Source of the DNA: Pseudomonas sp. St316
GTDB taxonomy: Bacteria; Pseudomonadota; Gammaproteobacteria; Pseudomonadales; Pseudomonadaceae
DNA: 64,000 bases
Direction: 5' to 3'
Assembly: GCF_018325905.1 (NCBI RefSeq)
Contig: NZ_AP021901.1
Coordinates: forward strand, 3,906,001-3,970,000
Shown piece after piece: positions 42,770-60,602 of this stretch. Each line of letters opens with the position of its first letter. The first letter of the stretch is position 1. The notes beneath the pieces are model-generated. The model saw nothing but the letters and a program-made list of their open reading frames with translations. It was not told the DNA's origin and did not search any database. A program made the translations under genes and the position numbers.

Positions 42770-43717
42770 TCAAGCCGGCGCCCTGGGTGTATCGGAGGGT
42801 GACTCGCCAAACAGCGCCCGGTAATGGGTCGCAAAATGACTCAGATGGAAAAAACCCATCGCCATGGCAATTTCACTGACGTTCAGTGCCGCCGCATGGG
42901 TCGTGATCAAACGTCGGCGCACGGCATTGAGCCGCAGGTTGCGCAGGTGCTCCACTGGACGCATCCCGGTGACCGCCTGGAAACTGTTCTGCAGGGTCCT
43001 GCGGCTGACCCGCAATTGCTCGCACAAGTCGAGGATGCTCAAGGGCACATCGGCGCTGGACACCACCAGCTCCTGGCAACGTTTGACCAGGTAGGCACTG
43101 ACGGCAAAATTGCCGCGTCGGCCACGCACCTCGTCCGAGGCGTGACTGAATAGATCGAGAAAGGCGTTGAGCAGGACGTCCTCGAGGATTTTTTCCGAGG
43201 CGGGACTGACGGCGTCTGCCTGCTCCAAAAGGTGACGAAACAGTGGGTGGATTTTTTGCTGCACGCGGCGCAATACCGCCTCATCCACGCTGACCTGGGA
43301 CACGCTTTTCAAGCGTTTGAGCTGTTCGCTCGACAGTTCGTAGGCCGCCAGTTTGGCGAACCGTACCGTGTCGACATTGGCCGCGAAGAAGTGCGTGCTT
43401 TCCGGCGCGTGCAAGACGAAGTCTTCGCCATCGCGCAACAGCACGACGCTATGGGCGCCCACTTGGTGCCCCTGGACCACCGGCGCACCGCCCAGCGACA
43501 TGGCAATGCACAAGCGCCCTTTTGGCGCGCAACCGCGCTGCACCACACGCTTATCCAGCACCTCCTGGAAAATCTGGAAACGCTCGGCGCACACCTGCCG
43601 CAGTTCACTGGAAAGGCAGCCACGCCCGAGTTGGTCATAGACCTGTTGCCAGCCTAGGATCGAACCGGCGTGTTGCTGAGGATCATTGAAGGTACGGACT
43701 TCGGCGAACATGATCAT
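42770..43717 (-). CDS. AraC-family activator of the putative aromatic cluster
   Basis: 315 residues from ATG 43717 (GAGGAACA); a second ATG at 43711 is also possible. N-terminal ligand-type domain, then two helix-turn-helix motifs at about 215-310: LSILDLCEQLRVSRRTLQNSFQAVTGM and LNVSEIAMAMGFFHLSHFATHYRALFGESPS. The spacing is typical of EutR/FeaR-like activators. It follows the hydratase gene after the dispersed repeat, in the same direction. Control of the cluster is inference from position. Confidence 0.85.
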   Translation of the reverse strand: MIMFAEVRTFNDPQQHAGSILGWQQVYDQLGRGCLSSELRQVCAERFQIFQEVLDKRVVQRGCAPKGRLCIAMSLGGAPVVQGHQVGAHSVVLLRDGEDFVLHAPESTHFFAANVDTVRFAKLAAYELSSEQLKRLKSVSQVSVDEAVLRRVQQKIHPLFRHLLEQADAVSPASEKILEDVLLNAFLDLFSHASDEVRGRRGNFAVSAYLVKRCQELVVSSADVPLSILDLCEQLRVSRRTLQNSFQAVTGMRPVEHLRNLRLNAVRRRLITTHAAALNVSEIAMAMGFFHLSHFATHYRALFGESPSDTPRAPA

Positions 43718-43754: not shown

Positions 43755-43857
43755 GTAGGAGCTGTCGAGTGCAACGAGGCTGCGATCTTTCCCCAGACAC
43801 TTGAATCCCGAGCGAAAGAAAAAAGATCAAAAGATCGCAGCCTTCGGCAGTTCCTAC
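43755..43857. repeat. Dispersed Pseudomonas intergenic repeat, copy 2
   Basis: Begins GTAGGAGCTGTCGAGTGCAA and GAGGCTGCGATCTTTCC, ends AAGATCGCAGCC..TTCCTAC, matching copy 1 at 2344-2464 with a different centre. Its last bases supply the TAG stop of the hydratase gene (43854-43856, minus strand). Confidence 0.75.
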
Positions 43858-44615
43858 CGGAAAACCAAAGCCAGTTCCGTGCCAAGCATGCGCAAACGAT
43901 ATTCGCCTGCCCTGACGTCCATCGGCGCCAACAACGCCCCGGACAGCACCACCTGCCCCGCTTCAACGCACTGCCCGTCAGCCAGCAAGCACCGGACCAG
44001 CCAACACAGGTTGGCCTGGGGCGTGTCCTCGCGCGCCAGGACGTTACCCTCACCGCAGGACACGCCGTCATGCGCCAGGCGATAGCTCACTTCGGACAGT
44101 CGATGCGGATCGAACACCACTCTCGCCCCGAGGCAATACAGCCCCGCAGCGGCATTGTCGGCAAGAAACGCCCCGACGCCGAAACGCCAGCCCTGCCAAC
44201 GACAATCGGCGATTTCGAATGCCGGCGCGATCTCGGAGATGGCGGCGAGGATGTCCTCGTCGCTGTAGAAACCCGGCACCAGTGTGCGCCCCAGGACAAA
44301 CGCCAGCTCGATTTCCAGCTTTGGCTGGATCAGCCGTGCCAGGGGCACCGTGCTGCCGGGTTCCACAACCATCGCATCGGTCAGTGCGCCCAACACCGGT
44401 TCATCAATACCGAAACGGTCCTGGGCGGCACGGCCGGCGAAAGCCACTTTCCACCCGGCCAACCGCTCACCAGCGGCCTCGCGCCGGCGCAATGCCTCGC
44501 GCTGCAAGGTGTAGCCCTCCTGCAGGGTGACGGCCTGTGGCTCCAACGAAGGCAAGGCATGTACAGCCTGCGCGGCCTCGTGAAGCCGGACCAGGAAATC
44601 ATCTTCGCGGCTCAT
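43854..44615 (-). CDS. 2-keto-4-pentenoate hydratase / oxalocrotonate decarboxylase family enzyme (MhpD-like)
   Basis: 253 residues. Divalent-metal ligands of the family are seen as E101 and E103 in KLEIELAFVLG and E134 in PAFEIAD; GWKVAF and SGALLAP are also typical. Members hydrate 2-hydroxypenta-2,4-dienoates from meta-cleavage to 4-hydroxy-2-oxo acids or decarboxylate oxalocrotonate. Overlaps the FAD hydroxylase gene by four bases (ATGA). Last gene of the operon; no aldolase follows. Confidence 0.85.
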   Translation of the reverse strand: MSREDDFLVRLHEAAQAVHALPSLEPQAVTLQEGYTLQREALRRREAAGERLAGWKVAFAGRAAQDRFGIDEPVLGALTDAMVVEPGSTVPLARLIQPKLEIELAFVLGRTLVPGFYSDEDILAAISEIAPAFEIADCRWQGWRFGVGAFLADNAAAGLYCLGARVVFDPHRLSEVSYRLAHDGVSCGEGNVLAREDTPQANLCWLVRCLLADGQCVEAGQVVLSGALLAPMDVRAGEYRLRMLGTELALVFR

Positions 44616-46219
44616 GAGAGTTGCTCCGCCAGTTTGCGCAAGACGCCTTCGAGCCGCTCGGGTGTGGTGATCGCGGCAACGAACCGATCCGGCCGCACCA
44701 CCACGACGCAGTCACGCACCTTGGCAAACCATTCGCCCAGGCGGTTATCGACGTCCTCGACGCAAATGGCGCCGCTGGCGGACAAGGGTTGGTTACGCCC
44801 CGCGCCACTGCGCGAGCGATTGATCTGGATGAAGCGCGTTTCCCAGCGCGCCCACCAGACAGCGGTTTGCTCGCTGAGCTGTTCGCTCGGGTTGACCCGA
44901 TACCCCAGCACCGCATAGGAATGCCCCAGCACCTCATCCAGGCGCCGGCGCTGCCCCTGGGCGTCCTCGACAGACGGCTGGATGAACAATTGCCCGACCA
45001 GATCATCCTCATGCAGCTCGGCGCGTTCGTGATACACCAAGCCTTTGGTGATGGTTGCCTTGGGTTTGAATTTGAATTCCAGCAAGTGCGAACGAAGGTT
45101 GTCGACGCTGTTGACGGCCTGGAACAACCAGTCCCGCACACCGGCCATCAACGGGTTAGTCAGCCCCAGCACGGCGCCCATGTTGTCGGCCAACGCAATG
45201 AGATCGGTCGCATGCCCACGGCGTTCCTGGTCGTAACTGGCAAGAATCGCCGGCGACGCCCGCCCTTGAAGAATCGCGGCGAGCTTCCAGGTGACGTTGG
45301 CGACATCACGCAGGCCCGAATTGAGGCCCTGCCCGGCCCAGGGCGGGGAAATATGCGCCGCATCCCCCACCAATGCCACACGGCCCTGGACAAAGCGCGC
45401 CGCGACCCGAGAGTTATGGGTGTAGGCGCGGATCCGGATGATTTCCAGTTGATCGACCGCATCGCCGATATGCCCACGGATCAAGTCCCGGATCGTGGCC
45501 TCTTCGCACATCCGGGCCTCGTCTTCGCCCTCCAGGAGCATGAACTCCCAGCGCCGCTGCTGATACGGCAGGTAGATGCAGACAAAGGGCCGCTGCGGGT
45601 CGGCATGCAGGGCCGTATACGGTGCATCCAGCGAGTCGTTGGCCGTGTCGATCACCACCCATTTGCGTGGATGGGTCAACCCCAGCAACTCGATGCCGAG
45701 TTTCTTGCGCACGCTGGAACGTCCGCCATCGGCGCCGATCACGTACTGCGCCTGCAATTGATAGAGCTCGCCCTGGGCATCGCGCACCTGCAAGGTCACG
45801 CCCCCGGCATCCTGCTCCAGATCGAGCATTTCATGGCCCTGGCGCAACTCGACACTGGCGTGCTTACCCAGTTGCTCGCGCAATGTCGTTTCCAGTAACT
45901 GTTGCATGAAGATGTTGCGCATCGGCCAGCCATAGTGGGCCGTGCTCGGCTTGACCTCGGCAAAACAGACGCCTCGCGCGTTGTAGTAACGCAGGGGCAC
46001 GTTGCAGATCATGTCGCGCGCGGCCAGTTTGGCGATGCCGATGCCCTGCAACACACGCAGTGCCTCGTCATCCATGCCCACCGCGCGCGGATACGGCAGG
46101 ACGCCGTCAGCCAACTCAAGGACGATGCAGTCGATGCCGTACAGCCCCATGTAATGACCGGCTGTGATCCCATTCGGGCCGCCGCCAACGATGACAACCT
46201 GGGTTTTCTCCTGCTTCAT
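44612..46219 (-). CDS. FAD-dependent aromatic hydroxylase (MhpA-like)
   Basis: 535 residues, group A flavin monooxygenase. FAD site VVIVGGGPNGITAG at 8-21, the DG motif VIGADGGRSSVRK and the GD motif GRVALVGDAAHISPPWAGQGLNSGLRD; length close to MhpA (about 550). Such enzymes use NAD(P)H and O2 to hydroxylate a phenolic ring ortho to OH. Directly follows the alpha/beta hydrolase gene (two bases). The ring substrate is unknown. Confidence 0.88.
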   Translation of the reverse strand: MKQEKTQVVIVGGGPNGITAGHYMGLYGIDCIVLELADGVLPYPRAVGMDDEALRVLQGIGIAKLAARDMICNVPLRYYNARGVCFAEVKPSTAHYGWPMRNIFMQQLLETTLREQLGKHASVELRQGHEMLDLEQDAGGVTLQVRDAQGELYQLQAQYVIGADGGRSSVRKKLGIELLGLTHPRKWVVIDTANDSLDAPYTALHADPQRPFVCIYLPYQQRRWEFMLLEGEDEARMCEEATIRDLIRGHIGDAVDQLEIIRIRAYTHNSRVAARFVQGRVALVGDAAHISPPWAGQGLNSGLRDVANVTWKLAAILQGRASPAILASYDQERRGHATDLIALADNMGAVLGLTNPLMAGVRDWLFQAVNSVDNLRSHLLEFKFKPKATITKGLVYHERAELHEDDLVGQLFIQPSVEDAQGQRRRLDEVLGHSYAVLGYRVNPSEQLSEQTAVWWARWETRFIQINRSRSGAGRNQPLSASGAICVEDVDNRLGEWFAKVRDCVVVVRPDRFVAAITTPERLEGVLRKLAEQLS

Positions 46220-46221
46220 CG

Positions 46222-47085
46222 CTATTCACCGCTTTGTTGTTGTGGTTGTAGACACTGGTCATACAAATAGTCGATGACGACAAGGTTGAACATTTCGCTT
46301 TGGTCATCATGGACGTAATGGCTGGCGTCGGCGATTTCCTCGGTGCGCACCAACTCATTGGCCTGCTTGATCGACTCAAGGGTCGCCAAGGGCAGGAAGT
46401 CGGAGCGGCCGCCACGAATGAACAGCGTCGGGCAATCCAGCGCCCGTACCGCCGGCCACAGGTCGGTCGGGGTAATACTCAGGCGCGCCTGGGCAATACC
46501 TTGCTGGTCGTGACGCCATTCGATTCCAGCCAGCGTTTCCTTCATGGAATACATCAACCTGGAAGCCAGCCCCTCCTGAGAGAGGCCGGGTCGCGCTTGC
46601 AGCCAGAACTGGGCGGCACTCTCCCAGTCAGGAAACAACAACGGTGTCTGGCTCATCTCGCGCCGAATGCGCTCGGCGCCGTCACCGCTGACCGAAGAAC
46701 CAGGGCCGATGTCCTCGATCACCAACGCTTGCAGGCGCCCCGGATTGAGCCGCGCATACTCCAGTGCATTGGTGCCACCGAGGGAATGCCCCACCAGGAC
46801 GAAACGCTGCAGACCCAGATGCGCCACCAGATCTTCAAGGTCGTGGACATAGGCCTCGGTCCGGTAACTGGAAGCATCCGCCCAGTCACTGTAGCCACGA
46901 CCGCGCTGGTCAAGGGCATAGCAGCAATACCGCTCGCCCAGCGCATTGGCCAGGCCATCCCAGGTCTGGGCATAGGAGCGCAGCCCGTGCAGCAACACCA
47001 CTGCAATGCCCGACGGATTGCCCCAAGACAGATAATGCAGGCGCATCCCTGACCGATTGATGAGGAACTGGCTGTTTGCAGACAT
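46222..47085 (-). CDS. Alpha/beta hydrolase, possible C-C bond (meta-cleavage) hydrolase
   Basis: 287 residues from ATG 47085 after GGGAGG. Oxyanion motif LLHG at 31-34, nucleophile S101 in GHSLGG, acid Asp in FIRGGRSDFL and base His in DASHYVHDD. It resembles MhpC/epoxide-hydrolase-like enzymes. Position between a dioxygenase and a hydratase suggests cleavage of a ring-fission product, but esterase activity is possible. Confidence 0.82.
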   Translation of the reverse strand: MSANSQFLINRSGMRLHYLSWGNPSGIAVVLLHGLRSYAQTWDGLANALGERYCCYALDQRGRGYSDWADASSYRTEAYVHDLEDLVAHLGLQRFVLVGHSLGGTNALEYARLNPGRLQALVIEDIGPGSSVSGDGAERIRREMSQTPLLFPDWESAAQFWLQARPGLSQEGLASRLMYSMKETLAGIEWRHDQQGIAQARLSITPTDLWPAVRALDCPTLFIRGGRSDFLPLATLESIKQANELVRTEEIADASHYVHDDQSEMFNLVVIDYLYDQCLQPQQQSGE

Positions 47086-47112
47086 TCGTTGGCCTCCCAC
47101 GATCAGCGCACC

Positions 47113-47715
47113 TCAATACAGGCCGTCATTGCCCTTGACGTCGGCAGCCTGAAGGCCACCCAGACGCGCATGCAAGCGCCCACGCGTGGCGAAGGCCCAG
47201 ATGATGATCAATTCGTCGGCCGCGGGACCGTCACCGAACGACAGCGAAATGCTGTCGTAGTGCGAACGGACATACAGCGCATCCTTGTGGGCCAGCGGCA
47301 CATCGATGGTCACCCCGGGCCCGCCACGCTTGCCGGTGGAAGGCACCCAGGACTTGCCGCCGCCCAACGCGACGCGGATCGGATCCGCCGCCGGGTTGGT
47401 CAACAATGCATTGCCATGCTCGTACTCGCCCTGGCTGCCCACCAGGCACGCCTTGCCGTAGCTGACGATTTCGCGCTGGCCCGCCAGTACCCGGATGCGC
47501 CGACCGAACTCCTGGCCCAGCAAGGGTGACGGCTCTATCAGCTCGGCCAGGCTTTCACTGAAACGGCCGGCATAAGGGTTGGCGATCACGGCACCAATGG
47601 CGTACTTGAACAGCGGTTCACCGTCGGCCAGCCGACCCGTTTCGTTGGCCAGGGTTTCCTCGACGAAGCTGTACCATTTGCGGATGTGGTAACTGGCGAA
47701 ATTGGCGGTTTTCAT
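47113..47715 (-). CDS. DUF1185 (amino acid synthesis family) protein
   Basis: 200 residues from ATG 47715 with GAAAGAG upstream; a TTG at 47733 is less likely. The family marks are IRKWYSFVEETLANETGR, AVIANPYAGRF, GQREIVSYGKACLVGSQGEYEHGNALL and GPGVTIDVPLAHKDA. Structures exist for the family but I know no proven activity. Soluble and embedded in the operon, so a step in the same pathway is likely. Confidence 0.75.
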   Translation of the reverse strand: MKTANFASYHIRKWYSFVEETLANETGRLADGEPLFKYAIGAVIANPYAGRFSESLAELIEPSPLLGQEFGRRIRVLAGQREIVSYGKACLVGSQGEYEHGNALLTNPAADPIRVALGGGKSWVPSTGKRGGPGVTIDVPLAHKDALYVRSHYDSISLSFGDGPAADELIIIWAFATRGRLHARLGGLQAADVKGNDGLY

Positions 47716-47729
47716 AAGAGCAGTCTCTT

Positions 47730-48179
47730 TCAAAGTGGGTCGAGATCGAAATGCCGGCTGGGGGCTCCAGCGGCCTTGAAGCGGGCCTTGCCTCGCTCGT
47801 CGTCATGTTCGGATTCGAGGAAGAATTCCAGGCGATTGCCGTCGGGATCGTTGAAATACACACCGTTACCAATCTCGTGGTCGGTGATCTTCACCACCTC
47901 GACGCCCTTGTTCAGCAACATGCCGTAGAGCTTGCGCAGGGTGGTCATGTCGCCCGCAATCTCCAGCCCGTAGTGCTGCAGCCCCAGGCCGCCCTGGTGG
48001 GCACCGGGTGCTGCGCGGAGCAACGCGATGTCGTGGTGCTTGGCACCGAAGGCCATCATGATCCAGCTTTCACCCCGGGCACTTTCATGCATGCCCAGCA
48101 CGTCGGCGTACCAACGCGCCGACACTTCAGGGTCGCTCACCGATAGCGACAGGTGAGTACGAACGACTTCGACTTTCAT
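47730..48179 (-). CDS. VOC-family extradiol-type dioxygenase, single domain
   Basis: 149 residues, one vicinal-oxygen-chelate module pair. Putative Fe(II) ligands H9 (THLSLSV), H69 (LQHYGLEI) and E118 (DPDGNRLEFF) in the 2-His-1-carboxylate pattern, so ring cleavage is possible. It is half the length of two-domain catechol 2,3-dioxygenases, so it could instead be a glyoxalase-like isomerase. The flanking hydroxylase, hydrolase and hydratase favour dioxygenase. Confidence 0.8.
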   Translation of the reverse strand: MKVEVVRTHLSLSVSDPEVSARWYADVLGMHESARGESWIMMAFGAKHHDIALLRAAPGAHQGGLGLQHYGLEIAGDMTTLRKLYGMLLNKGVEVVKITDHEIGNGVYFNDPDGNRLEFFLESEHDDERGKARFKAAGAPSRHFDLDPL

Positions 48180-48190
48180 CGCGCGACACC

Positions 48191-49231
48191 TCAGTTCTTC
48201 TTGATGATGGATTGATGCCCGGACTTGATTTGCGCCACGGCGGGCGTCCAGAGCACATCAGCGATTTCACTGAATTCACGCCACTGCTTCTGCCAGCCGT
48301 CACCGCCGTTCTCGGAGGTGAACAGATGCCCGTACTTGGTGCCAGCGACAATCTGGCGAGGGTCGGCAGGATTCAAGGCAATCGCCCAGACACAGGAGTT
48401 GGGCTGTTGCGGCAGTGGCAGCACTTCCCAACTGAGGGCGGCATCCCGGGAGACCAGCACCTTGCTGGTCGTGCCAGGGGTGCCGTCGGAAATGCTCAGG
48501 TAGAGCGTATCCTCGCTGCCCAGCGCTGCATTCATGGCGCGCACGTAGTACAGGCCGAAGGTTTCCCGGGCGACGATGCCGGTCCAGGTCTGCCCCTCGT
48601 CGAGGCTGCGATACACGGCGTTGACGCACACCACCACGACGACCTTTTGCCCATGGTTGGGCAGGACCACGATGTTATGCACGTCCGAGTTGTAGTCCCA
48701 CAGCAAGCGATCATCGACACGGGTCCAGCTATCGCCACCGTCACGGCTGTGGAACAACCCACCCTCCTCCAGGCCAAACCAGAGCTGGTTGCGATCCGTC
48801 GGGTCGTAGGCGAAGGCCAGCAAGCGCGGACGACTGACGCCGTCGCAGAACTCAGGGATCTCCACCGGGGCACGTTCCCAGTGCTGACCACCGTCGAGGG
48901 TGCGCCACAGCACCGCGCGCGACGGCGCACCGGTGCCGACGAAAATGCGCTGTGCGTCCTGCGGGTCCACGGCCACCTTCCAGACGGTCCGGCCGTTGAA
49001 TGGCGAATCCAACCGCTGCCAATGGCCTCCGGTATCAAGGCTGATGCACAGGCCGACGTCGGTGCCGGCATAGATCACCTCCGGCGTACCCGGGTGGAAA
49101 CTCAAGGATCGGGTGATCGCATCGAATTCCAGGTCCTGGCCCAGGCCCAGGCGATGCCAGGTCCGGCCATCGTCGGCGCTGCGGATCACCGCCTGCCCGA
49201 CGGTGGCGACCAAAAGGGTTCCGTTACTCAT
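48191..49231 (-). CDS. Seven-bladed Asp-box (BNR) beta-propeller protein
   Basis: 346 residues without signal peptide; ATG 49231, though GTG three bases earlier is possible. Seven Asp-box motifs: SADDGRTW at 18-25, SLDTGGHW 64, TLDGGQHW 111, SRDGGDSW 162, SLDEGQTW 209, SRDAALSW 261, SENGGDGW 306, spaced 45-52 residues, i.e. one per blade. Automatic labels would say sialidase, but no sialidase RIP motif or arginine triad is evident and the setting is a catabolic operon. Function unknown; a propeller lyase, lactonase or scaffold are options. Confidence 0.8.
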   Translation of the reverse strand: MSNGTLLVATVGQAVIRSADDGRTWHRLGLGQDLEFDAITRSLSFHPGTPEVIYAGTDVGLCISLDTGGHWQRLDSPFNGRTVWKVAVDPQDAQRIFVGTGAPSRAVLWRTLDGGQHWERAPVEIPEFCDGVSRPRLLAFAYDPTDRNQLWFGLEEGGLFHSRDGGDSWTRVDDRLLWDYNSDVHNIVVLPNHGQKVVVVVCVNAVYRSLDEGQTWTGIVARETFGLYYVRAMNAALGSEDTLYLSISDGTPGTTSKVLVSRDAALSWEVLPLPQQPNSCVWAIALNPADPRQIVAGTKYGHLFTSENGGDGWQKQWREFSEIADVLWTPAVAQIKSGHQSIIKKN

Positions 49232-49243
49232 CACTGCTGTTCC

Positions 49244-50038
49244 TCAAATGAAGATGCCACGGGTCAAACCGCCGTCGATACCAATGGATTCCCCGGTCAC
49301 GGCACCGGCCTTGGGGGATGCGAGGAAACCGATCAGCCAACCCATTTCGATGGGCGCCAGGGTGCGCCGGATTGGCGTCGCATCGATGTAGCCCTGCTCC
49401 ACCTGCTCGGGCGTCTTGCCCTGCTTGATCCCTTCGCGCTCGTAGAGCTCCTGGATGTGCGGGGTGTCCACGACGCCGGGGTGGATCAGATTGACCGTGA
49501 TGCCGGATGGGCCCAATTGGTCGGAAAGTGTCTTGGTCATGTGGGCGATGGCCAGGTTGCGCATGCCCGAGAGCACCTTGCTGCCACGCCCGGTCAGGCC
49601 GCCAATGTTGATGATGCGACCGAAGCCAACGGCCTTCATGTGCGGAGTCACGGCCTTGGCGCAACGGAAATAGCCGATCACCTTGGTGTTGAGGTCCGAG
49701 AGCAGCTCATCGTCGCCGGCATGCTCGATGTCGTTGCGCACCACACCGGACGGTGCCGCGGCGCCGTTGACCAGGATGTCGATGCGGCCAAAGTGCTTAT
49801 GCACGGCCTCGACCATGTCGGACACCGCCGACATCTGGTTGGTGTCACAGAACAGCGGCAGCACCTCGTTGCCGGTCTGCGCAGTGATTTCCTCGGCGGC
49901 CTGCTGGAGAAACTCCATGCGCCGCGCGCAAATCACTACCTTGCAACCTTCCTGGGACAGAAAACGCGCGACTTCCTTGCCGATGCCCATGCCACCGCCG
50001 GTGACGATTGCCACGCGGCCTTGTAATTCCAGATCCAT
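49244..50038 (-). CDS. SDR-fold protein lacking the Ser-Tyr-Lys catalytic residues
   Basis: 264 residues. The nucleotide-binding part is normal: TGGGMGIG at 13-20, ILVNGAA near 88-94. At the active site Ser is replaced by Gly (IINIGG, 146-147), and the YxxxK pair by S157 and N161 in SGMRNLAIAHMTK; N117 is kept. The C-terminal ITVNLIHPG and TGESIGIDGGL are intact. It may bind NAD(P) without classical reductase chemistry, or use a different mechanism. Thirteen bases upstream of the propeller gene. Confidence 0.83.
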   Translation of the reverse strand: MDLELQGRVAIVTGGGMGIGKEVARFLSQEGCKVVICARRMEFLQQAAEEITAQTGNEVLPLFCDTNQMSAVSDMVEAVHKHFGRIDILVNGAAAPSGVVRNDIEHAGDDELLSDLNTKVIGYFRCAKAVTPHMKAVGFGRIINIGGLTGRGSKVLSGMRNLAIAHMTKTLSDQLGPSGITVNLIHPGVVDTPHIQELYEREGIKQGKTPEQVEQGYIDATPIRRTLAPIEMGWLIGFLASPKAGAVTGESIGIDGGLTRGIFI

Positions 50039-50064
50039 AGCAGTTCCTCTTATGATTGTTCGGC

Positions 50065-51555
50065 TCAGGCGAGATCGACGAAAACACTTTTGGTTTCGGT
50101 GTAGGCATCGATCACGTTCTTACTCATTTCCCGGCCCCAGCCGGATTGCTTGTAGCCACCAAAGGGTGAAGCCGGGTCGACGACGTTCCAGCAGTTGATC
50201 CACACCGAGCCGGCCTTCAACTGGGCGGCCACGCGATGGGCAGAACGCAAGTCGCGGGTCCAGAGCCCTGCGGCCAGGCCATAGGGCGAGTCGTTGGCGC
50301 GCAGCACCAGGTCATCGATTTCGGTCCAGCTCATGACGGTCAACACCGGGCCGAAGATTTCTTCCCGGGCGACACAGGCGCGCTCGGCGCGGTCGAGAAA
50401 TACGCTGGGCCGGATGAAGTGGCCGCGCTCCAGATGGGCCGGTCGGTCACCGCCGCAGATCAGCTCGGCGCCTTCTTCCTGGCCCCGTTGCAGGTAGCTA
50501 CGCACCGTGCCCAGTTGCCGGGCCGAGACCAGCGGGCCCATGCTGCTGGTCGGGTCCAGGCCTGGCCCCAACACATAGGCGGCCGCGTGGCGCTGGAGTT
50601 GTTCAAGCACCTGATCAAGAACGCTGGCGTGCACGTAGAGACGCGATCCGGCGGTGCAGACCTGCCCCTGGTTGTAGAAAATGCCGTCGGCGGCACCTTT
50701 GGCGGCCCGGACGATATCGGCGTCCGGCAGGATGATGTTGGGGGACTTGCCACCCAGCTCCAGGGAGACCTTTTTCATGTTGCCGGTGGCCGCCTGGGCG
50801 ATCAGCCGCCCCACCTGGGTCGAACCGGTGAAGGCGATCTTGTCCACGTCCGGGTGCTGGGCCAGTGGTGCGCCGGTATGCACCCCAAGACCGGTGAGCA
50901 GGTTGACCACACCAGCCGGGAAACCGGCGGCCTCAATCAACTGCACCAGGCGAATCGCAACCAGGGGCGTCTGCTCGGCGGGCTTGAGTACCGCGACGCA
51001 ACCGGTCGCCAGCGCCGGGCCAAGCTTCCACACGCACATGGTCAGCGGGAAGTTCCACGGCACGATCAAGGCACAGACGCCCACCGGCTCGCGCAACGTG
51101 TAGTTGAGCATCGGTGCGCCACTGGAGGGCGACACTGGTAAGGTGCTGCCTTCGATCTTGGTCGGCCAGCCCGCGAAATAACGAATGATATTCGCCGCAC
51201 TGGCCGCTTCCCCCCGAGCCGCAGCGATCGGCTTGCCGTTTTCCAGGGTAATCAGTTGCGCCAGCTCTTCGCGATGCTGGTCGAGCAGTTCCGCCAGGCG
51301 AAACAGCAACAACCCGCGCTGGGCAGGTGACTGCTGCGCCCAGGGCCCGGTGAAGGCCGCGCGGGCGGCAGCGACGGCGGCATCCACATCACGTTCGCCG
51401 CCTTCGGCGACTTCCGCCAGGGTGTGCTCAGTGGCCGGATTTTGCACGGCAAACCGGCGGCCGCTGGCAGCGTCCTGCCAGGTCCCTCCGATAAACAGGC
51501 GTCCGGGCTGCGACAGGAACTTCTCGACGGCAGGTAACAATTGAATCGGGTTCAT
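50065..51555 (-). CDS. Aldehyde dehydrogenase
   Basis: 496 residues from ATG 51555 (AAGGAGCGGAT). Catalytic C300 in GQVCTAGSR, general base E266 in LELGGKS, N168 in PWNFP, K191. NAD-type ALDH of the betaine/phenylacetaldehyde group. It follows the TPP enzyme by ten bases, so it probably oxidises the aldehyde released by that decarboxylase, much as in the mandelate pathway. Confidence 0.9.
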   Translation of the reverse strand: MNPIQLLPAVEKFLSQPGRLFIGGTWQDAASGRRFAVQNPATEHTLAEVAEGGERDVDAAVAAARAAFTGPWAQQSPAQRGLLLFRLAELLDQHREELAQLITLENGKPIAAARGEAASAANIIRYFAGWPTKIEGSTLPVSPSSGAPMLNYTLREPVGVCALIVPWNFPLTMCVWKLGPALATGCVAVLKPAEQTPLVAIRLVQLIEAAGFPAGVVNLLTGLGVHTGAPLAQHPDVDKIAFTGSTQVGRLIAQAATGNMKKVSLELGGKSPNIILPDADIVRAAKGAADGIFYNQGQVCTAGSRLYVHASVLDQVLEQLQRHAAAYVLGPGLDPTSSMGPLVSARQLGTVRSYLQRGQEEGAELICGGDRPAHLERGHFIRPSVFLDRAERACVAREEIFGPVLTVMSWTEIDDLVLRANDSPYGLAAGLWTRDLRSAHRVAAQLKAGSVWINCWNVVDPASPFGGYKQSGWGREMSKNVIDAYTETKSVFVDLA

Positions 51556-51565
51556 ATCCGCTCCT

Positions 51566-53107
51566 TCACAACGCCATTTCAATCAGGCAAGGACCGCCAT
51601 CGGCCTTGGCGTTGGCCAGGGCGCGCTGCAACTCACCATTGGTGTGCACGGTGCTGGCCGGTAAGCCGTAGCCCTTGGCCAAGGCCTTCCAATCGATGCG
51701 CGGACGGTCCAGTACTGTCAGGCTCAGGGCCTCGGGACCCAGCTCGGTCATGCCGAAGCGGCGCAGCTCGTTCTGCAAAATCGCGTAGCGATGGTTGGCC
51801 GCGATCAGGATCACCACCGGCAGTTGCTCACGGGCGATGCTCCACAAGGTCTGGATGGTGTACTGGGCACTGCCGTCCGATTGCAGGCAGAACACGCGGT
51901 TGCCGCGCTCGGCCATGGCGGCGCCAAAGCCCACCGGGATGCCCTGGCCGATGGCCCCACCAGTGTTGGTCAAGACCCGATGCCGTGCGGCATGGGCCGA
52001 AGCGGTGAAGAATGGATAGCCGCACGTCCCGCCTTCCACCGAAACGATGCAGTCGTCCGGCAGCGATGCAGCCAGCACCTGCCCCACGGACTGCGGGGTC
52101 AACGTGGCTTCGCCTGGCGGCAGTTCGATACCGATTGGCGTTGGCACATAAGCCGGCGCCTCGAGCGCATCGGCAAGCGCAGTGAGCGCGCCGGCAACGT
52201 CGTCCCCCACCTCAGCCAGACACAGCAGGCGTTCACGCTCTGCCAGTCGGGAGGCAATGCCTTCGTAGCCGAAGTAGCTGATGGGCTCAGGGACGCCGGC
52301 GCACACCACCGCGTCGTATTGGTCAAGAATTTCGATGGCCACTTCGGGGAAGTACGGCAGGCGATCCAGGTCAGGCAAACCACCGCCGCGATAGCTCAGA
52401 CGTGGAAAGGTTTCGGCGAACAGGCGCACACCTGGCAGTTGTGCCAGGCGCCCCGCCGTTTCGAGTCCGGCGACGGACAAGCCTTGGTCGCCAACGATAA
52501 AAACCAGGCGACGGCCATCACGCAGGGCCTGGGCGACCGCCTCGATCCGGTCACCGGCAAAACGGCGAACCGGGGCCTGCAATGCCGTGAAGGCTTTCTC
52601 GTGCTGCACCGTGTTGGCTTGCAGGTCCATCGGCAGAATCAGACTGGCGATCTGCCCGTTGGCTTGCCAGGCGGCACGCACTGCCTCTTGGAAATCTTCA
52701 CCGATGCCCGACGCCGTGCGCGAGGTGCGCACCCACCCGGAAACGCTGCCGGCCAGTACCTGGATATCACTGGCCAGCGGCGGATCGTAGTTGACGTGCC
52801 AGGACGCGTGATCGCCGATGACGTTAACAATCGGAGTGTTGGCACGACGCGCGTTGTGCAGGTTGGCAATGCCATTGGCAAAGCCTGGTCCCAGGTGAGT
52901 CAGAGTCATCGCCGGCTTGCCAGCAATCCGGCCATAGCCGTCGGCCGCACCGGTGCACACCCCTTCGAACAAGGACAACACCGGCTTGAGGGCTGGCGCA
53001 CTGGCCATGGCTGCCACCAGGGGAATTTCAGTCGTTCCGGGATTGGCGAAGCAGTATTCGATACCGCTCGCCACCGCCGCCTTCACTATCAGTTGCGCAC
53101 CATTCAT
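51566..53107 (-). CDS. Thiamine-diphosphate enzyme, acetolactate synthase / benzoylformate decarboxylase-like
   Basis: 513 residues, the length of MdlC-type decarboxylases. Activating Glu E48 in SLFEGVCTGAADGYGR; TPP-Mg site SDGSAQYTIQ..AANHRYAIL; central domain with FIVGDQGLSVAG. Acts on a 2-oxo acid, either decarboxylating it to an aldehyde or carboligating. The ALDH next to it favours decarboxylation. First gene of the nine-gene operon, divergent from an IclR regulator. Confidence 0.85.
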   Translation of the reverse strand: MNGAQLIVKAAVASGIEYCFANPGTTEIPLVAAMASAPALKPVLSLFEGVCTGAADGYGRIAGKPAMTLTHLGPGFANGIANLHNARRANTPIVNVIGDHASWHVNYDPPLASDIQVLAGSVSGWVRTSRTASGIGEDFQEAVRAAWQANGQIASLILPMDLQANTVQHEKAFTALQAPVRRFAGDRIEAVAQALRDGRRLVFIVGDQGLSVAGLETAGRLAQLPGVRLFAETFPRLSYRGGGLPDLDRLPYFPEVAIEILDQYDAVVCAGVPEPISYFGYEGIASRLAERERLLCLAEVGDDVAGALTALADALEAPAYVPTPIGIELPPGEATLTPQSVGQVLAASLPDDCIVSVEGGTCGYPFFTASAHAARHRVLTNTGGAIGQGIPVGFGAAMAERGNRVFCLQSDGSAQYTIQTLWSIAREQLPVVILIAANHRYAILQNELRRFGMTELGPEALSLTVLDRPRIDWKALAKGYGLPASTVHTNGELQRALANAKADGGPCLIEMAL

Positions 53108-53151
53108 TTCCAGCCCTCTTGATCGAGCGTTTGCAGTGGCTGAGATTTATC

Positions 53152-53193
53152 ACACACAAAAATCCTCTACTCAAGTGTTTTTTACACACAAAA
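53152..53193. promoter_or_regulatory. Direct repeats in the AT-rich control region of the cluster
   Basis: ACACACAAAA occurs at 53152-53161 and again at 53184-53193, 32 bases apart (about three helix turns), each followed by a CTC..AG stretch. The 275-base gap 53108-53382 between the TPP enzyme and the IclR gene is much more AT-rich than its surroundings. Candidate IclR or AraC binding sites. Confidence 0.35.
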
Positions 53194-53382
53194 GCTCTTA
53201 TTTTGAGATTTATGCAAAATTATAAAGAGAATATAGCCATCTTCGTGTTTGTTTTTCTCAGGCACTGACGTATCGTGGCAACGCCTCGTTCGCCGAGCGA
53301 GCGGGCTTTTCATCATCGGCGCACCTACCTATAGTGCTCACCCAACGACCACCTATGCGCCATTCCCCCCTTTAGGAGCGAA

Positions 53383-54117
53383 ATGAGCAGTCTGAGCAAA
53401 ATGCTGAGTGTGCTGGACCTGTTCGGCCCGGAAACGCTGAAGATCGACCCCGACACCGTCGCCGAGCGCATGGGCTTGTCACGGGCGACTGTGTACCGCT
53501 ACGTCAAGGATTTGTGTGATGCAGGCCTGCTGGTCCGGGTGGATGCCGGCAGCTACGGACTGGGGCCCCGCATCATCGAGCTTGACTGGATGATGCGCCA
53601 ATACGACCCGATCCTCGTGGCGGGTCGCGAGTTGATGCACCATCTGTCCGAAGCCACTGGCCTGGCGGTGTTCGCCAGCGTTTTCTATGACGGCCATATC
53701 ATCAACACCTACATCGCCGAACCCAATGACACCTACCAGTTCGCATTCGGGCGCGGCCAGCCGCTGCCGTTTTTTCGCGGTGCGCAATCCAAGGTGCTGA
53801 TCGCCTTCCAAAAGGGACGGCGCCTGCAACGCCTGTTCGAAGAACACTTGGCCAACGATCCTGACAATACCTACGACTGGGCAAGCTTCTCCAAAGCGGC
53901 GAAAAAGATCCGCAAGGACGGCTATTGCCTGACCCACGATGAACTCAACCAGGGGCTCACCGGTATTGCCGCGCCGATCATCAACCCTGAGCTCGACGAG
54001 GTGGTGGGCAGCCTTTCAGCCGTCGGCAGCACCGACAGCTTCAAACTGCTGCGCCAGGAAACCGTGATTGAAATGGTGATGGACACCACCCGGCGGATTG
54101 CCGAGCGGATGCGCTGA
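53383..54117 (+). CDS. IclR-family regulator of the putative aromatic cluster
   Basis: 244 residues; ATG 53383 after AGGAGCGAA. Winged helix at about 5-65 (KMLSVLDLFGPETLKIDPDTVAERMGLSRATVYRYVKDLCDAGLL), then the effector domain (LMHHLSEATGLAVFASVFYDG, DGYCLTHDELNQGLTGIAAPI). Divergent from the TPP-enzyme gene, so it most likely controls the operon from the AT-rich gap. IclR proteins commonly respond to aromatic or keto-acid intermediates. Confidence 0.87.
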   Translation: MSSLSKMLSVLDLFGPETLKIDPDTVAERMGLSRATVYRYVKDLCDAGLLVRVDAGSYGLGPRIIELDWMMRQYDPILVAGRELMHHLSEATGLAVFASVFYDGHIINTYIAEPNDTYQFAFGRGQPLPFFRGAQSKVLIAFQKGRRLQRLFEEHLANDPDNTYDWASFSKAAKKIRKDGYCLTHDELNQGLTGIAAPIINPELDEVVGSLSAVGSTDSFKLLRQETVIEMVMDTTRRIAERMR

Positions 54118-56408: not shown

Positions 56409-57734
56409 TCAGAACGGCACGGCCACCGTCACCTGGCTATACACGTTGGTGCCATTGCCCATTACTTGATTGCCCCCCGTCGTTGCATCCCGGTCCGGCT
56501 TGTAGAGGCCTATCAGCGGGGTAATGATCAAATGCTCGTTGACGGCCCACTCGGCATACACATCCAGCTCGCGGGCATCCAGGTTCAGGGTGTTGTCTTT
56601 ACGCACGGTGCTGTAATCGAAGTACAACGCACCGAGGGTCAGGTTCTCCAACGGCGTGGCTTTCAGGCCGACATGATGAATGCCCGTGTTGCTGTTGAAA
56701 GGCCCGGCATAATTGCCCGCGACCTCGCCCTGGAACCAAGTGCCATAACCCGTGCTCTGCCCGGTGAACAGCGAGTCCCACTTCTGGGAGTAACGGGTGT
56801 AGCGGTAGGTCAGCTTCGGGGTCCAGGCGAGATCGGCAAAGGTGTAGCCGGCCTCGGCGTACCAGGCGTTCTGCGGGCCGGCGTCCTTGTCCTGCCAGGC
56901 GTATTCGAATGCCAGGCTGGCGTTCTCGATGCCCGCGTCACCTTCACCACGAATGCTGTAGACGTCCATGCCCTTGCGTTGCTTCTGGAAATCGCTGGCC
57001 CACTGCTTGTTCACGTCGATGCCATGTATCCAGGTCATCCCCAACGTGCCCGCTTTGGTGCTGTAGTCCAGCGTGCCGGCGGCCAGTTCGGTTTCGGCCT
57101 GGGCGCGGTTATCGGACTTGAGCCACACCACACTGCCATGCAGCCCGTCCTGCCCACCCAGACGTAAAACGGCGGTTTGATCGAACGCGTGCCGGGCAGC
57201 CAGGTAATAGGCGCCACCGCGATTCAAGCGACCATCGGCAGGCCCTTTGCCCAGGTTCAGCCCATCATCGTTGATCAAGAATCCCCTGCCCAGCTTGACC
57301 ACCTGGCGGCCGCCGGAGACATCGACACCGTCCTGCCCCAACACGAGAAACAGATCGGCGGAACGCCAACCCAGGTAAGCGTCTTCAATTTTCGTCGTGC
57401 GCTCGCTGCCCAGCGTATTGCCGGCCGCGTCGCCGTCACCCCAGGTGGCGGAGCTGACCAGGCTGAACGCCCCATAGGCGGTGCCATGGCCAGTCAGGCC
57501 CTGGTCGCCGCTGACGCCATACTTGATGAAACCTTCGCGCCAGGTTGAACCACCTGGCCTGCCGTCGTAGTTCTTGCGACTGTTGAAATGACCGAACACG
57601 GCCAGCATGTCGGCGTTGAGGTGAGTGTCGTCATCGGCATACAACTCATAGGCCTGAACCTGACTCGCAGCGCAGAGCGCCAGCGTACAGGCAAGGCCAC
57701 TGCCGAAAAATCCCATACACGATAGATTTCGCAT
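56409..57734 (-). CDS. Outer-membrane porin
   Basis: 441 residues from ATG 57734 (AAAAGGAGCTCC). Signal peptide ending QVQA at residue 28; beta-barrel pattern with many aromatic girdle residues, terminal Phe (VTVAVPF). It is not a clear OprD or LamB; alginate-export-like porins are the nearest in style. It follows the aminotransferase gene by 85 bases in the same direction, so it may serve the amine/amino-acid substrate of that cluster. Its 3' end is duplicated at 54187-54305. Confidence 0.8.
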   Translation of the reverse strand: MRNLSCMGFFGSGLACTLALCAASQVQAYELYADDDTHLNADMLAVFGHFNSRKNYDGRPGGSTWREGFIKYGVSGDQGLTGHGTAYGAFSLVSSATWGDGDAAGNTLGSERTTKIEDAYLGWRSADLFLVLGQDGVDVSGGRQVVKLGRGFLINDDGLNLGKGPADGRLNRGGAYYLAARHAFDQTAVLRLGGQDGLHGSVVWLKSDNRAQAETELAAGTLDYSTKAGTLGMTWIHGIDVNKQWASDFQKQRKGMDVYSIRGEGDAGIENASLAFEYAWQDKDAGPQNAWYAEAGYTFADLAWTPKLTYRYTRYSQKWDSLFTGQSTGYGTWFQGEVAGNYAGPFNSNTGIHHVGLKATPLENLTLGALYFDYSTVRKDNTLNLDARELDVYAEWAVNEHLIITPLIGLYKPDRDATTGGNQVMGNGTNVYSQVTVAVPF

Positions 57735-57819
57735 GGCTGGAGCTCCTTTTTGTGGTGCGCCCTTATAGGCTGTTTTTATATTCAGGAGCCGGCACCACAA
57801 GCGGCACCGGCTGGCCGGG

Positions 57820-59169
57820 CTAACGGCAGTCGGCGAGCGCGCTGTCCAGCGCACCGACCATCATGGCGGCCTCGTCAGAAGTGAGGGTCAGTGGCGGCGA
57901 CATCACGATTTTGTTGCCTATCGGGCGCATCAATACACCGGCCCGGCGTGCCTGCTCAGCGATGCGCGAGGCCAGGCCCGTTGCAGGGTCAAGCGGCTCG
58001 CGCGTGGCCTTGTCCGCCACCAGGTCCACGGCGATCATCAAGCCCTTGCCGCGCACTTCGCCCACCACCGCATAACGTTCGGTCAGCGGTTGCAGTTGCT
58101 CCAGCAACTGGGCACCGACTTTCCCGGCGTTGCCCGGCAAATCCTCGGCCTCGACGAGGTCCAGCACCGCCAGGGCCGCCGCACAAGCAGTCGGGTGCCC
58201 ACTGTAGGTGTAGCCGTGCATGATCACGCTGCTGAAACCCGGGCCGTTCTCGATGGCATCGACGATGCGCTGGTTGAAGACCGTGGCGCCCATGGGGATG
58301 TAGCCAGCAGTGATGCCCTTGGCCAGGCACAGTACGTCGGGCGCGACACCCCAGCCACGGCTGCCGAGCATGCAGCCGGTGCGGCCGAAACCGGTCACCA
58401 CTTCATCGGCAATCAACAGGATGCCGTGGCGGTCGCAGACTTCCCGCAGCCGCTTCCAGTAATACGCGGGTGGCACGATCACCCCGCCGGCGCCTTGCAC
58501 CGGTTCGGCGATCAGCGCGGCAATGGTCTGCGGGCCGAGCAGCGCGATCTGGTCTTCCAACTGACGAATGCAGTGAGCGGTCAGTTCTTCTGGATCGCGG
58601 CAGTCCCAAGGGTTGCGGTACAGCCACGGCGTGTCGAGCAGATGACAGCCTGCCAACAGCGGCCCGTGGTTGTAGTGATACACGCCGTTGCCGCCCACCG
58701 AGGTCCCCCCCACGTGCACACCATGGTAGCCATTGCGCAATGACAGAAAGCGCGTGCGCCCTGGCTCGCCGACGGCGATCCAGTATTGGCGGGCCATTTT
58801 CAGCGCCGTCTCGACCGCATCGGAACCGCCGGAACTGAACAACACCCGGGTCATTTTTTCCTGGGCGAACATCGATGTCAGTCGCTCGGCCAGGTCGAAA
58901 ACCCGTGGATGGGCAATACCGTCGAAGGTCTGGTAATAAGCCAGTTCGTCCAGCTGCGCTGCGATGGCCGCCTTCACTGAAGCCCGGTTATGGCCCACGT
59001 TCACGTTCCACAAGCCGCCGACACCATCGAGCATGCGATGGCCCTCGATATCGGTGATGTAGTTACCGTCGCCACGGGCGATGATCAACGTCTTGGAGCG
59101 GTTGGCTGGCGCCGAAGAACTCATCGGGTGCCAGAACTTCTTCTGTGCTGTCTTGTATTGCTCGTACAT
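57820..59169 (-). CDS. Class III pyridoxal-phosphate aminotransferase (omega-amino acid type)
   Basis: 449 residues from ATG 59169 (GAGGACTG upstream). PLP lysine K284 in LCLAKGITAGYIPMG, D255 in LLIADEVVTGFGRTG, phosphate-cup GGSDAVETALKMAR. Moves the amino group of an omega-amino acid or amine (beta-alanine, GABA, polyamine type) to pyruvate or 2-oxoglutarate, giving an aldehyde that the ALDH 11 bases upstream can oxidise. Exact substrate unknown. Confidence 0.88.
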   Translation of the reverse strand: MYEQYKTAQKKFWHPMSSSAPANRSKTLIIARGDGNYITDIEGHRMLDGVGGLWNVNVGHNRASVKAAIAAQLDELAYYQTFDGIAHPRVFDLAERLTSMFAQEKMTRVLFSSGGSDAVETALKMARQYWIAVGEPGRTRFLSLRNGYHGVHVGGTSVGGNGVYHYNHGPLLAGCHLLDTPWLYRNPWDCRDPEELTAHCIRQLEDQIALLGPQTIAALIAEPVQGAGGVIVPPAYYWKRLREVCDRHGILLIADEVVTGFGRTGCMLGSRGWGVAPDVLCLAKGITAGYIPMGATVFNQRIVDAIENGPGFSSVIMHGYTYSGHPTACAAALAVLDLVEAEDLPGNAGKVGAQLLEQLQPLTERYAVVGEVRGKGLMIAVDLVADKATREPLDPATGLASRIAEQARRAGVLMRPIGNKIVMSPPLTLTSDEAAMMVGALDSALADCR

Positions 59170-59180
59170 GATTGCAGTCC

Positions 59181-60602
59181 TCATTCTGTTTCACGCTTGC
59201 GTACGTACAGCAGTTGCTGGCCGGTGAACTCCAGCAACCCTTCAAGGCCGAACTCGACGCCGAACCCGGACATCTTGCTGCCGCCAAACGGCGTATTCGG
59301 CTGGATCTGCGCATGGCAGTTGACCCAGGCCATGCCACATTCCAGGCGACTGGCCAGGGCCTGTGCCTGCTCGCTGTCGCGCCCCCAGACCGATCCACCC
59401 AGGCCCATGTCGCCAGCATTGGCGCGACGCAGGACATCCTCGACATCCTGGTAGGCAATCAGCGGCAACACCGGCCCGAACTGCTCCTCATCCACCAGGC
59501 GCTGCCCATCGGTCACATCGGCGACCAGCGTCGGCGGATAGAAAAAGCCCGGACGATCCAGACGAGCACCGCCACACAACACGCGCGCTCCCTGGGCACG
59601 GGCATCCGCCACCAGTTCCTCCACCAGCGCCAGCTGTTCGAGGTTCTGCACCGGGCCAAACGTGACCCCGGGCGCCAGGCCGTCACCCACCACCTGACGC
59701 CGGGCGATCAGGGTCAGGGTCTCGGCAAAGGCCTCGTACTGGGACTGGTGGATGTACAAGCGCTTGAGGGCGGCGCAGGTCTGCCCCATGTTCAGGAATG
59801 CGGCCTGGAAAATATCTTCGGCGACCGCCTCGATCGAGGTGCCTGGCAGCACAATGGCGGCATCGTTGCCGCCCAGCTCCAGGGTCAGGCGCTTGAGGTT
59901 GCTGGCGGCGCCGCGCATCACGCTTTGGCCGGTAGCGGTGGAGCCGGTGAAGACAATCTTCTGGATACCGGCGTGGGAGGTGATCGCACTGCCGAACCCT
60001 TGCTCACCGGTCACGCTATTGATCACGCCCCGAGGCACGTGGCGAGCGATGACTTCCACCAGGCGCAGGGTGCTCAAGGGGGTCAGGCTCGATGGTTTGC
60101 TGATCACGCAGTTACCGGCCCGCAACGCCGGCATGATGTGCCAGACAGCAATCATGAACGGCCAGTTCCAAGGCGTGATCGACGCGACCACGCCCAACGG
60201 CTTGCGGTGCAGTTCAATACGCTGGGTCGGGGTTTCTTCCACCAACTCCACGGGAATCTGCTGCTCGGCGGCATAGCGCGTCCAGGCCACCGCGCCCATC
60301 ACTTCGGAGAACGCCAATTCCAGTGGCTTGCCCTGTTCCAGGACAATGAGCCGGGCCAATGCCTCGGCTTCCTGCTCGAGATCGGCAGCGATGCTCAGCA
60401 GGCGCTGGCGGCGATCTTCATGGGTGCTGTGTCGCCATTCGACAAAGGCCGACTGCGCCGCTTCGACGGCCAGGTCCAGCTGGGCCAGGGAACCGGCCGC
60501 GCATCGAGCGAACACCGTACCGGTCGCCGGATTGAGCACATCAAATTGCCCGTTTTCGCCGTCGACCCGAGCCCCATTGATGAGCATTTGATAATCGTGC
60601 AT
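59181..60602 (-). CDS. Aldehyde dehydrogenase
   Basis: 473 residues. Catalytic C276 in NMGQTCAALKR, E242 in LELGGND, N146 in PWNWPF, K169. Paired with the class III aminotransferase, so a semialdehyde such as malonate or succinate semialdehyde is the likely substrate type. Starts 83 bases after the permease gene; same direction as permease, aminotransferase and porin. Confidence 0.9.
   Translation of the reverse strand: MHDYQMLINGARVDGENGQFDVLNPATGTVFARCAAGSLAQLDLAVEAAQSAFVEWRHSTHEDRRQRLLSIAADLEQEAEALARLIVLEQGKPLELAFSEVMGAVAWTRYAAEQQIPVELVEETPTQRIELHRKPLGVVASITPWNWPFMIAVWHIMPALRAGNCVISKPSSLTPLSTLRLVEVIARHVPRGVINSVTGEQGFGSAITSHAGIQKIVFTGSTATGQSVMRGAASNLKRLTLELGGNDAAIVLPGTSIEAVAEDIFQAAFLNMGQTCAALKRLYIHQSQYEAFAETLTLIARRQVVGDGLAPGVTFGPVQNLEQLALVEELVADARAQGARVLCGGARLDRPGFFYPPTLVADVTDGQRLVDEEQFGPVLPLIAYQDVEDVLRRANAGDMGLGGSVWGRDSEQAQALASRLECGMAWVNCHAQIQPNTPFGGSKMSGFGVEFGLEGLLEFTGQQLLYVRKRETE

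Follow-up and report, generated by a model that had tools for sequence, protein, structure and literature searches.

How a bacterium disposes of a cleaved aromatic ring when the usual aldolase is missing is the question raised by a nine-gene operon of Pseudomonas sp. St316. The operon lies in a window of 64 kilobases (kb), the whole stretch of DNA that was analyzed and to which all coordinates refer, in a genome that is a single contig of 6.78 megabases (Mb). Its nine open reading frames (ORFs) are all on the minus strand and run from position 53107 down to position 43854. We regard the encoded system as catabolism of aromatics by meta-cleavage in which the lower branch is unusual. To judge from sequence, and at slightly less than an even chance, it may be an inducible catabolic system for a hydroxylated aromatic acid made from an arylalkylamine, with a decarboxylative-reductive lower route.

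The first-pass annotation described nine genes in one direction and in the order given below, with gaps of -4 to about 30 bases, an IclR gene divergent and an AraC gene downstream. The ORF coordinates agree with this description throughout. All nine ORFs have ATG starts, and the intergenic gaps reckoned from these starts are 10, 26, 12, 11, 14, 27, 2, and -4 bases (a range of 27 to -4). Families were assigned to the proteins of the window with Pfam and NCBIfam profile scans, as follows:

51566..53107, minus strand: thiamine pyrophosphate (TPP) enzyme, benzoylformate-decarboxylase-like, proposed 2-oxoacid decarboxylase (NF005760, 663 bits, cut-off 363)
50065..51555, minus strand: ALDH1, an aldehyde dehydrogenase (ALDH) (PF00171; nearest NCBIfam model phenylacetaldehyde dehydrogenase StyD, 601 bits, below the cut-off of 850)
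49244..50038, minus strand: protein of short-chain dehydrogenase/reductase (SDR) fold, lacking the classical Ser-Tyr-Lys and proposed to reduce a C=C bond (family scan; nearest solved chain 6jh7)
48191..49231, minus strand: Asp-box (BNR) beta-propeller, proposed enzyme on the ring-cleavage product (family scan, AlphaFold2 model)
47730..48179, minus strand: VOC protein, proposed single-domain extradiol dioxygenase (PF00903; weak match to TIGR03211, catechol 2,3-dioxygenase)
47113..47715, minus strand: PF06684 (formerly DUF1185) protein (Pfam; solved relatives 2qtp and 3byq)
46222..47085, minus strand: alpha/beta hydrolase (family scan; 21.5% identity to MhpC)
44612..46219, minus strand: flavin adenine dinucleotide (FAD)-dependent aromatic hydroxylase (NF004831, 766 bits, cut-off 546; 38% identity to Escherichia coli MhpA)
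43854..44615, minus strand: MhpD/DmpE-like hydratase or isomerase (nearest model TIGR03220, 135.5 bits, cut-off 408.8; PF01557, 20.9 bits, cut-off 23.9)

The sequence evidence for ring hydroxylation and cleavage is good. When the Mhp proteins of E. coli were compared with the operon proteins by BLASTP (E value 1e-3), the identity of the FAD protein to MhpA extended over 535 residues, and the hydratase was 28% identical to MhpD; MhpB, MhpE, MhpF, and MhpR had no match among the operon proteins at this threshold. Residues were scored as conserved if 97% or more of the near-full-length homologues have them, and their catalytic or metal-binding roles are presumed from what is known of each family. 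Conserved residues include H9, H69, and E118 of the VOC protein (n = 85), a 2-His-1-Glu metal ligand set; the triad S101, D229, and H256 of the hydrolase (n = 61); and the acidic metal ligands E101, E103, and E134 of the hydratase (n = 59). The VOC ligands are no proof of a dioxygenase, because Fos-type thiol transferases have similar ones. Nevertheless, an FAD enzyme of the MhpA type together with a VOC protein that keeps its metal ligands upholds the earlier claim that a ring is hydroxylated and opened, and both reactions can very probably be assigned to the operon from these sequence features. The accompanying claim of hydrolysis and hydration stands in part: the triad and the hydratase ligands are intact, whereas the label “MhpC-type” has 21.5% identity behind it. 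The suggestion that the substrate might be N-heterocyclic met with no specific pointer to such compounds.

Compared gene for gene, the operon differs from each of mhp, fde, ifc, hcd, and hpa as far as tested. Filing the operon under any of these is rejected, because each system has characteristic partners that are absent from the operon. The mhp pathway of E. coli K-12 (3-hydroxyphenylpropionate) is alike in its FAD hydroxylase, its hydratase, and, weakly, its hydrolase. In contrast to mhp, the operon has no relatives of MhpB, MhpE, MhpF, or MhpR, its extradiol enzyme is of another family (MhpB being a LigB-family dioxygenase), and it adds the TPP, SDR, propeller, and DUF1185 genes. The hpa pathway (homoprotocatechuate) has a protein of the hydratase superfamily in common with the operon (HpaH model, 121 bits), but HpaD is encoded elsewhere in the St316 genome and not in the operon. 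The proteins FdeE, IfcA, HcdA, and the other Fde, Ifc, and Hcd proteins were set apart by family and description rather than by sequence. The fde genes of Herbaspirillum seropedicae SmR1 (naringenin) share FdeE-like FAD hydroxylase and FdeC-like glyoxalase-type dioxygenase enzymes with the operon; the Rieske partner FdeD and FdeA, named in the available portion of PMC8552027, are by family absent from it. According to the accessible text of PMC11069340, the ifc genes of Variovorax sp. V35 (isoflavones) are alike in the FAD hydroxylase IfcA, the glyoxalase-type IfcB, and an alpha/beta hydrolase, and require the cupins IfcD1/IfcD2, whereas no cupin occurs among the nine operon proteins. The hcd genes of Pseudomonas mandelii 7HK4 (7-hydroxycoumarin) share, by family only, an FAD hydroxylase, a type I extradiol dioxygenase, an FAA-family protein, and DUF1185; they also include a coumarin reductase of the zinc alcohol dehydrogenase type (HcdE), the cupin-like HcdF, and a flavin mononucleotide (FMN) reductase, none of which the operon has, and the parts of both accounts that could be consulted (PMC6222606, PMC7913881) make no mention of TPP, ALDH, SDR, or propeller proteins. 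A cluster of P. thivervalensis SC5 is described, in the portion of PMC8515041 at hand, as resembling the Herbaspirillum naringenin genes; it may or may not be this operon. As far as their available text goes, the gene set is not described in PMC11069340, PMC6222606, PMC7913881, PMC2954203, PMC11303751, PMC8552027, PMC8515041, PMC3093359, PMC10143770, PMC3390384, or PMC2991359, and a term search of PMC4440368 gave no matches. No paper was recognized as describing the operon in a literature search that most subscription papers lay beyond.

The lower branch of the system is unusual. The nearest solved chains to the TPP enzyme are benzoylformate decarboxylases, and its E48 and H71 are conserved (n = 77), as are C300 and E266 of the operon's ALDH (n = 69). 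The SDR-like gene of the first-pass annotation does encode an SDR fold, and the nucleotide-binding TGxxxGxG is retained in the sequences printed, but the protein is no ordinary dehydrogenase: Gly, Ser, and Asn stand at the aligned Ser, Tyr, and Lys positions in 79/79 sequences, that of the window included. Its nearest solved chain, 6jh7, likewise has Ser and Asn at the aligned Tyr and Lys positions. A scheme in which the SDR protein oxidizes 3-hydroxybutyrate was discarded because Ser-Tyr-Lys is absent. The usual aldolase and acylating aldehyde dehydrogenase had been called absent, and this is confirmed for the operon and extends to the genome, in which neither MhpE nor MhpF has a match at 1e-20. 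The same two E. coli proteins were searched at E 1e-20 in 25 operon-bearing Pseudomonas genomes, most of them draft assemblies and one 86% complete; in 22 of them, St316 included, MhpF is without a match and MhpE without one of at least 40% identity, with HpaI-type aldolases left out of the search. Three genomes (G237, G529, G560) contain both MhpE (41-81%) and MhpF (44-67%) and serve as internal controls, and three of the 22 (G435, G518, G564) have MhpE matches of just 27-30% identity. The altered active site of the SDR protein and its nearest solved relative, an alkenal reductase, suggest a decarboxylative-reductive lower route via the TPP enzyme, the SDR protein, and ALDH1, a proposal that we consider less likely than not.

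The operon is not peculiar to St316. Relatives were gathered with an alignment of 24 propeller proteins, which yielded 79 named loci from the best 80 of 169 stretches; with three further Pseudomonas loci (L117-L119) and five plasmid loci, 87 loci were counted. Locus L120 was excluded from the counts (propeller match of only 28%), L118 and L061 are the same contig, and the sample, drawn through the propeller gene, is mostly Pseudomonas. By propeller, Pseudomonas kilonensis (99%) comes nearest among the named relatives in the best 80 of the 169 stretches, followed by P. brassicacearum (98%). All but two of the 87 loci (L124 and L125) have a propeller that is at least 45% identical. In these 85, the most constant partners are the VOC protein (84, of which 83 lie at most 300 base pairs away), the FAD enzyme (81), DUF1185 (81), the TPP enzyme (78), and the SDR protein (78), followed by ALDH1 (68), the hydrolase (68), and the hydratase (58); some absences reflect contig ends (L084, L088, L103). 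The co-occurrence of the operon genes is more than chance. The neighborhood comparison that the first-pass annotation called for finds the core order not only in Pseudomonas but also in marine gammaproteobacteria, Paraburkholderia, and Streptomyces: TPP-ALDH-SDR-propeller-VOC-DUF1185-hydrolase-FAD is common to Pseudomonas, Marinobacterium, Marinomonas, Vibrio, Nitrincola, Amphritea, Acinetobacter, Pseudomaricurvus, Paraburkholderia, and Streptomyces, and the block without ALDH1 is found in Achromobacter, Hydrogenophaga, Pusillimonas, and Janthinobacterium. A Novosphingobium plasmid locus (L122) is without the FAD gene, and its VOC protein is 40% identical. The propeller's tightest partner is the VOC protein, because this pairing survives in nearly all loci, even reduced ones. 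Within Pseudomonas, the propeller is present in 25 of 249 sampled genomes (one copy with an in-frame TGA). A tblastn search of plasmids with the propeller gave 35 records, none at 60% identity or more.

Several loci are arranged differently. In Marinobacterium ramblicola (L083:10004-20929), the operon is followed by another propeller-VOC-FAD set. In part of the P. fluorescens group (L045, L050, L053, L059, L065, and others), no hydrolase gene stands between DUF1185 and FAD, and some of these loci carry a 68-71% identical hydrolase about 9-10 kb downstream, past OCD-RidA-DAO genes. On plasmid pLA3 of Novosphingobium pentaromativorans (L125:8884-11041), a VOC gene is again followed by a propeller gene (28% identity), but the neighborhood is a different one. 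In Ideonella benzenivorans (L090:4678-14485), propeller-VOC-FAD lies near genes for a GMC oxidoreductase, an ALDH, and a tautomerase; because of these neighbors, entry into the pathway there may be from an alcohol.

The best clue to the substrate lies in linked amine-converting genes, which the first-pass annotation overlooked. The wider neighborhood in relatives includes a transaminase, a second ALDH, a permease, and a probable outer-membrane protein, which in the window occupy positions 56409-62134. These and the other features around the operon are:

53383..54117, plus strand: IclR-family regulator, divergent, nearest the PcaR/PcaU/PobR model (TIGR02431, 92 bits, cut-off 284.75)
42770..43660, minus strand: AraC-family regulator, downstream, start approximate (family scan)
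53145..53209, minus strand: promoter-like TTGAGT-17-GATAAA (53174-53146) and inverted repeat ATCTCAAAATAAGAG (53209-53195), upstream of the TPP gene (alignment of 42 regions)
56409..57854, minus strand: probable outer-membrane protein, “porin” being a guess from sequence (no Pfam or NCBIfam match; beside the operon in 44/85 loci)
57820..59184, minus strand: class III omega-transaminase (PF00202; solved chain 5lh9, 917 bits, residues 6-453)
59181..60602, minus strand: ALDH2, aldehyde dehydrogenase 36% identical to ALDH1 (family scan)
60686..62134, minus strand: amino acid/amine permease (PF13520; in 43/85 loci at 35% identity or more)

Transaminase relatives flank the operon in 25/85 loci, including those of marine bacteria, Curvibacter, and Burkholderia. 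An OCD gene does so in 17/85, in 14 of the 17 without a transaminase; it is accompanied by RidA and DAO-type flavoprotein genes, and its product scores above the cut-off of the NCBIfam model “tyramine oxidase subunit B.” Across the 249 Pseudomonas genomes (transaminase match in 20, OCD gene in 30), one or the other is present in all 25 operon genomes versus 22 of the 224 others. The transaminase lies less than 10 kb from the propeller in 13/14 operon genomes and the OCD gene in 10/14; the 14 transaminases of operon genomes are at least 85% identical, and four have one in-frame TGA. HpaD (TIGR02298) occurs in 73/249 Pseudomonas genomes and in 15/25 operon genomes; TIGR02295, taken as the HpaD family, is the wrong type for Pseudomonas (0/249 above cut-off, 3/249 below). 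HpaD is present in 12 of the 16 genomes that have the OCD gene but no operon. In five OCD genomes (G400, G447, G511, G607, G634), it is at most 25 kb from the OCD gene. The OCD gene thus goes with HpaD or the operon in 26/30 genomes, which indicates phenethylamine-type amines. These associations make derivation of the ring substrate from an arylalkylamine somewhat probable, and a hydroxyphenethylamine-type compound is the leading guess.

The following pathway, of which we infer the substrate, every reaction, and the order of the reactions, would connect these genes. In St316, the amine would enter through the permease and be converted to an aldehyde by the omega-transaminase and then to an arylalkanoic acid by ALDH2; in other Pseudomonas, the OCD-family protein, RidA, and the DAO-type flavoprotein would act in place of the transaminase or alongside it. 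Ring hydroxylation would fall to the FAD enzyme and extradiol cleavage to the VOC protein. The propeller, hydrolase, DUF1185, and hydratase-like proteins would convert the ring-cleavage product to a short unsaturated 2-oxoacid, which the TPP enzyme, in place of MhpE/MhpF, would decarboxylate to an enal. The SDR-fold protein would then reduce the C=C bond of the enal, and ALDH1 would oxidize the resulting aldehyde, giving an acid that could enter central metabolism. These last three steps are proposed because of the similarities of the TPP enzyme, the altered SDR active site, the solved relative of the SDR protein, and the missing MhpE/MhpF. The presence of two ALDH genes agrees with a pathway that has two distinct aldehydes.

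A number of observations weigh against this pathway. Loci of Ideonella (L090) and Curvibacter (L092, L093) hold propeller-VOC-FAD only, with TPP, SDR, and DUF1185 absent, and a Bradyrhizobium locus (L113) has the propeller, DUF1185, hydrolase, and TPP genes with VOC and FAD absent. Wide spread is called into question by an even sample of the phylum, in which a propeller of more than 31% identity occurs in only 4/398 genomes, all Pseudomonas. Neither a transaminase nor an OCD gene is present in the available flanks of 46/85 loci, those of Streptomyces included, and the Fisher p of about 1e-21 for the amine-gene association ignores relatedness and is uncorrected for it. The name “tyramine oxidase subunit B” comes from annotation and not from a functional test; the nearest solved chains to the DAO protein are L-amino acid deaminases, and an amino acid substrate is therefore equally fitting. 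The link of 6jh7 to AerF, an alkenal reductase that uses NADPH to reduce a C=C bond, is background from outside this analysis. The lack of MhpE and MhpF matches at 1e-20 on the one St316 contig leaves HpaI-type aldolases outside the search, and the hydratase-like protein is left unexplained if the TPP route replaces hydration. Furthermore, the OCD gene was not found in the St316 genome, which has HpaD at G000:3078905, outside the window; the ordinary 4-hydroxyphenylacetate route may for these two reasons coexist in St316. Tyramine as the sole substrate is disfavored on the same two grounds.

Three other explanations distribute the genes differently. The TPP enzyme and ALDH1 could instead belong to an upper pathway that converts an aromatic amino acid (meta-tyrosine is possible) via arylpyruvate and arylacetaldehyde to arylacetate before ring cleavage. 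The benzoylformate decarboxylases nearest the TPP enzyme, the StyD model nearest ALDH1, the deaminases nearest the DAO protein, and the transport of amino acids by the permease family all speak for this arrangement, which we consider rather unlikely; it gives no account of the missing MhpE and MhpF, a second ALDH already adjoins the transaminase, and the TPP gene is retained in the window although the transaminase would supply the aldehyde. Alternatively, an aldolase outside the operon, such as HpaI, may stand in for MhpE in an ordinary hydratase-aldolase lower route, with the TPP, SDR, and ALDH1 proteins otherwise employed. The intact hydratase metal ligands would suit such a route, and HpaI, itself not searched, is likely in the 15/25 operon genomes that have HpaD; yet the other ten are without an HpaD match, and the TPP and SDR genes, each in 78/85 loci, are kept more often than the hydratase gene (58/85), which leaves this explanation improbable.

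A similarly low probability is given to a pathway for a plant phenolic (coumarin, flavonoid, or similar) of the hcd/fde/ifc kind, with the amine genes there for other reasons. The Rieske FdeD, the cupin IfcD, the reductase HcdE, and the cupin HcdF are all absent from the operon, and amine genes are present in 25/25 operon genomes, even though many carriers bear plant-associated species names. The enzymes held in common also argue for a plant phenolic: the FAD hydroxylase, type I extradiol dioxygenase, FAA-family, and DUF1185 proteins all have counterparts in hcd, as given in the available parts of PMC6222606 and PMC7913881, and fde and ifc too, in the accounts as far as accessible, have an FAD hydroxylase and a glyoxalase-type dioxygenase. 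The decarboxylative-reductive pathway for an arylalkylamine remains the preferred reading. Its most general form, a second kind of lower meta-cleavage route in several bacterial groups, is a doubtful proposition: the TPP enzyme would form an enal, an SDR protein with a rebuilt site and an ALDH would follow, no pyruvate-forming aldolase or acylating dehydrogenase would take part, and the propeller and DUF1185 would be new enzymes acting on the ring-cleavage product.

The propeller and DUF1185 proteins are candidate enzymes on the ring-cleavage product. Two catabolic systems include relatives, as described in the available portion of PMC7913881: HcdD, whose gene is induced by 7-hydroxycoumarin but for which no effect was demonstrable, and TgnF, which reportedly stimulates one step in the breakdown of trigonelline. 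The propeller has 54 polar or Trp positions that are conserved in 97% or more of 84 sequences. Its AlphaFold2 model has a mean predicted local distance difference test (pLDDT) of 91, and Foldseek with this model retrieved generic propeller folds only (3b7f, GH74 enzymes, YCF48).

The 275 bases between the IclR and TPP genes contain the promoter-like TTGAGT-17-GATAAA and the inverted repeat ATCTCAAAATAAGAG. Both elements are conserved in parts across 42 aligned upstream regions, with TTGT instead of TTGA in the first hexamer of relatives. A consensus promoter scan did not list TTGAGT-17-GATAAA and found 3 promoters versus 2.5 expected; an Rfam scan of the window gave no match. Between the IclR gene and that of the probable outer-membrane protein, positions 54328-56226 hold a gene for a trypsin-like protease with weak matches to Ig-like domains; it has no match in loci L038-L120 at the threshold used, and may for this reason be an insertion in this lineage. 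Past the AraC gene, positions 37764-42587 hold genes for a gamma-glutamyltranspeptidase, an ABC transporter, a solute-binding protein, and a GntR regulator, possibly a further uptake system for amino compounds.

The amine-gene association, the missing MhpE/MhpF in most carriers, and the SDR protein without Ser-Tyr-Lys are new here. Automatic names obscure the operon, with acetolactate synthase, glycosyl hydrolase, and amino acid synthesis among the library and source names. If the proposed pathway is true, about one in ten sampled Pseudomonas (25/249) would possess a defined gene set for the use of aromatic amines, and the same set would serve some marine bacteria, betaproteobacteria, and Streptomyces. 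It would also provide testable roles for the propeller family, for DUF1185, and for an SDR protein without the SDR triad, within a meta-cleavage route that bypasses the aldolase.

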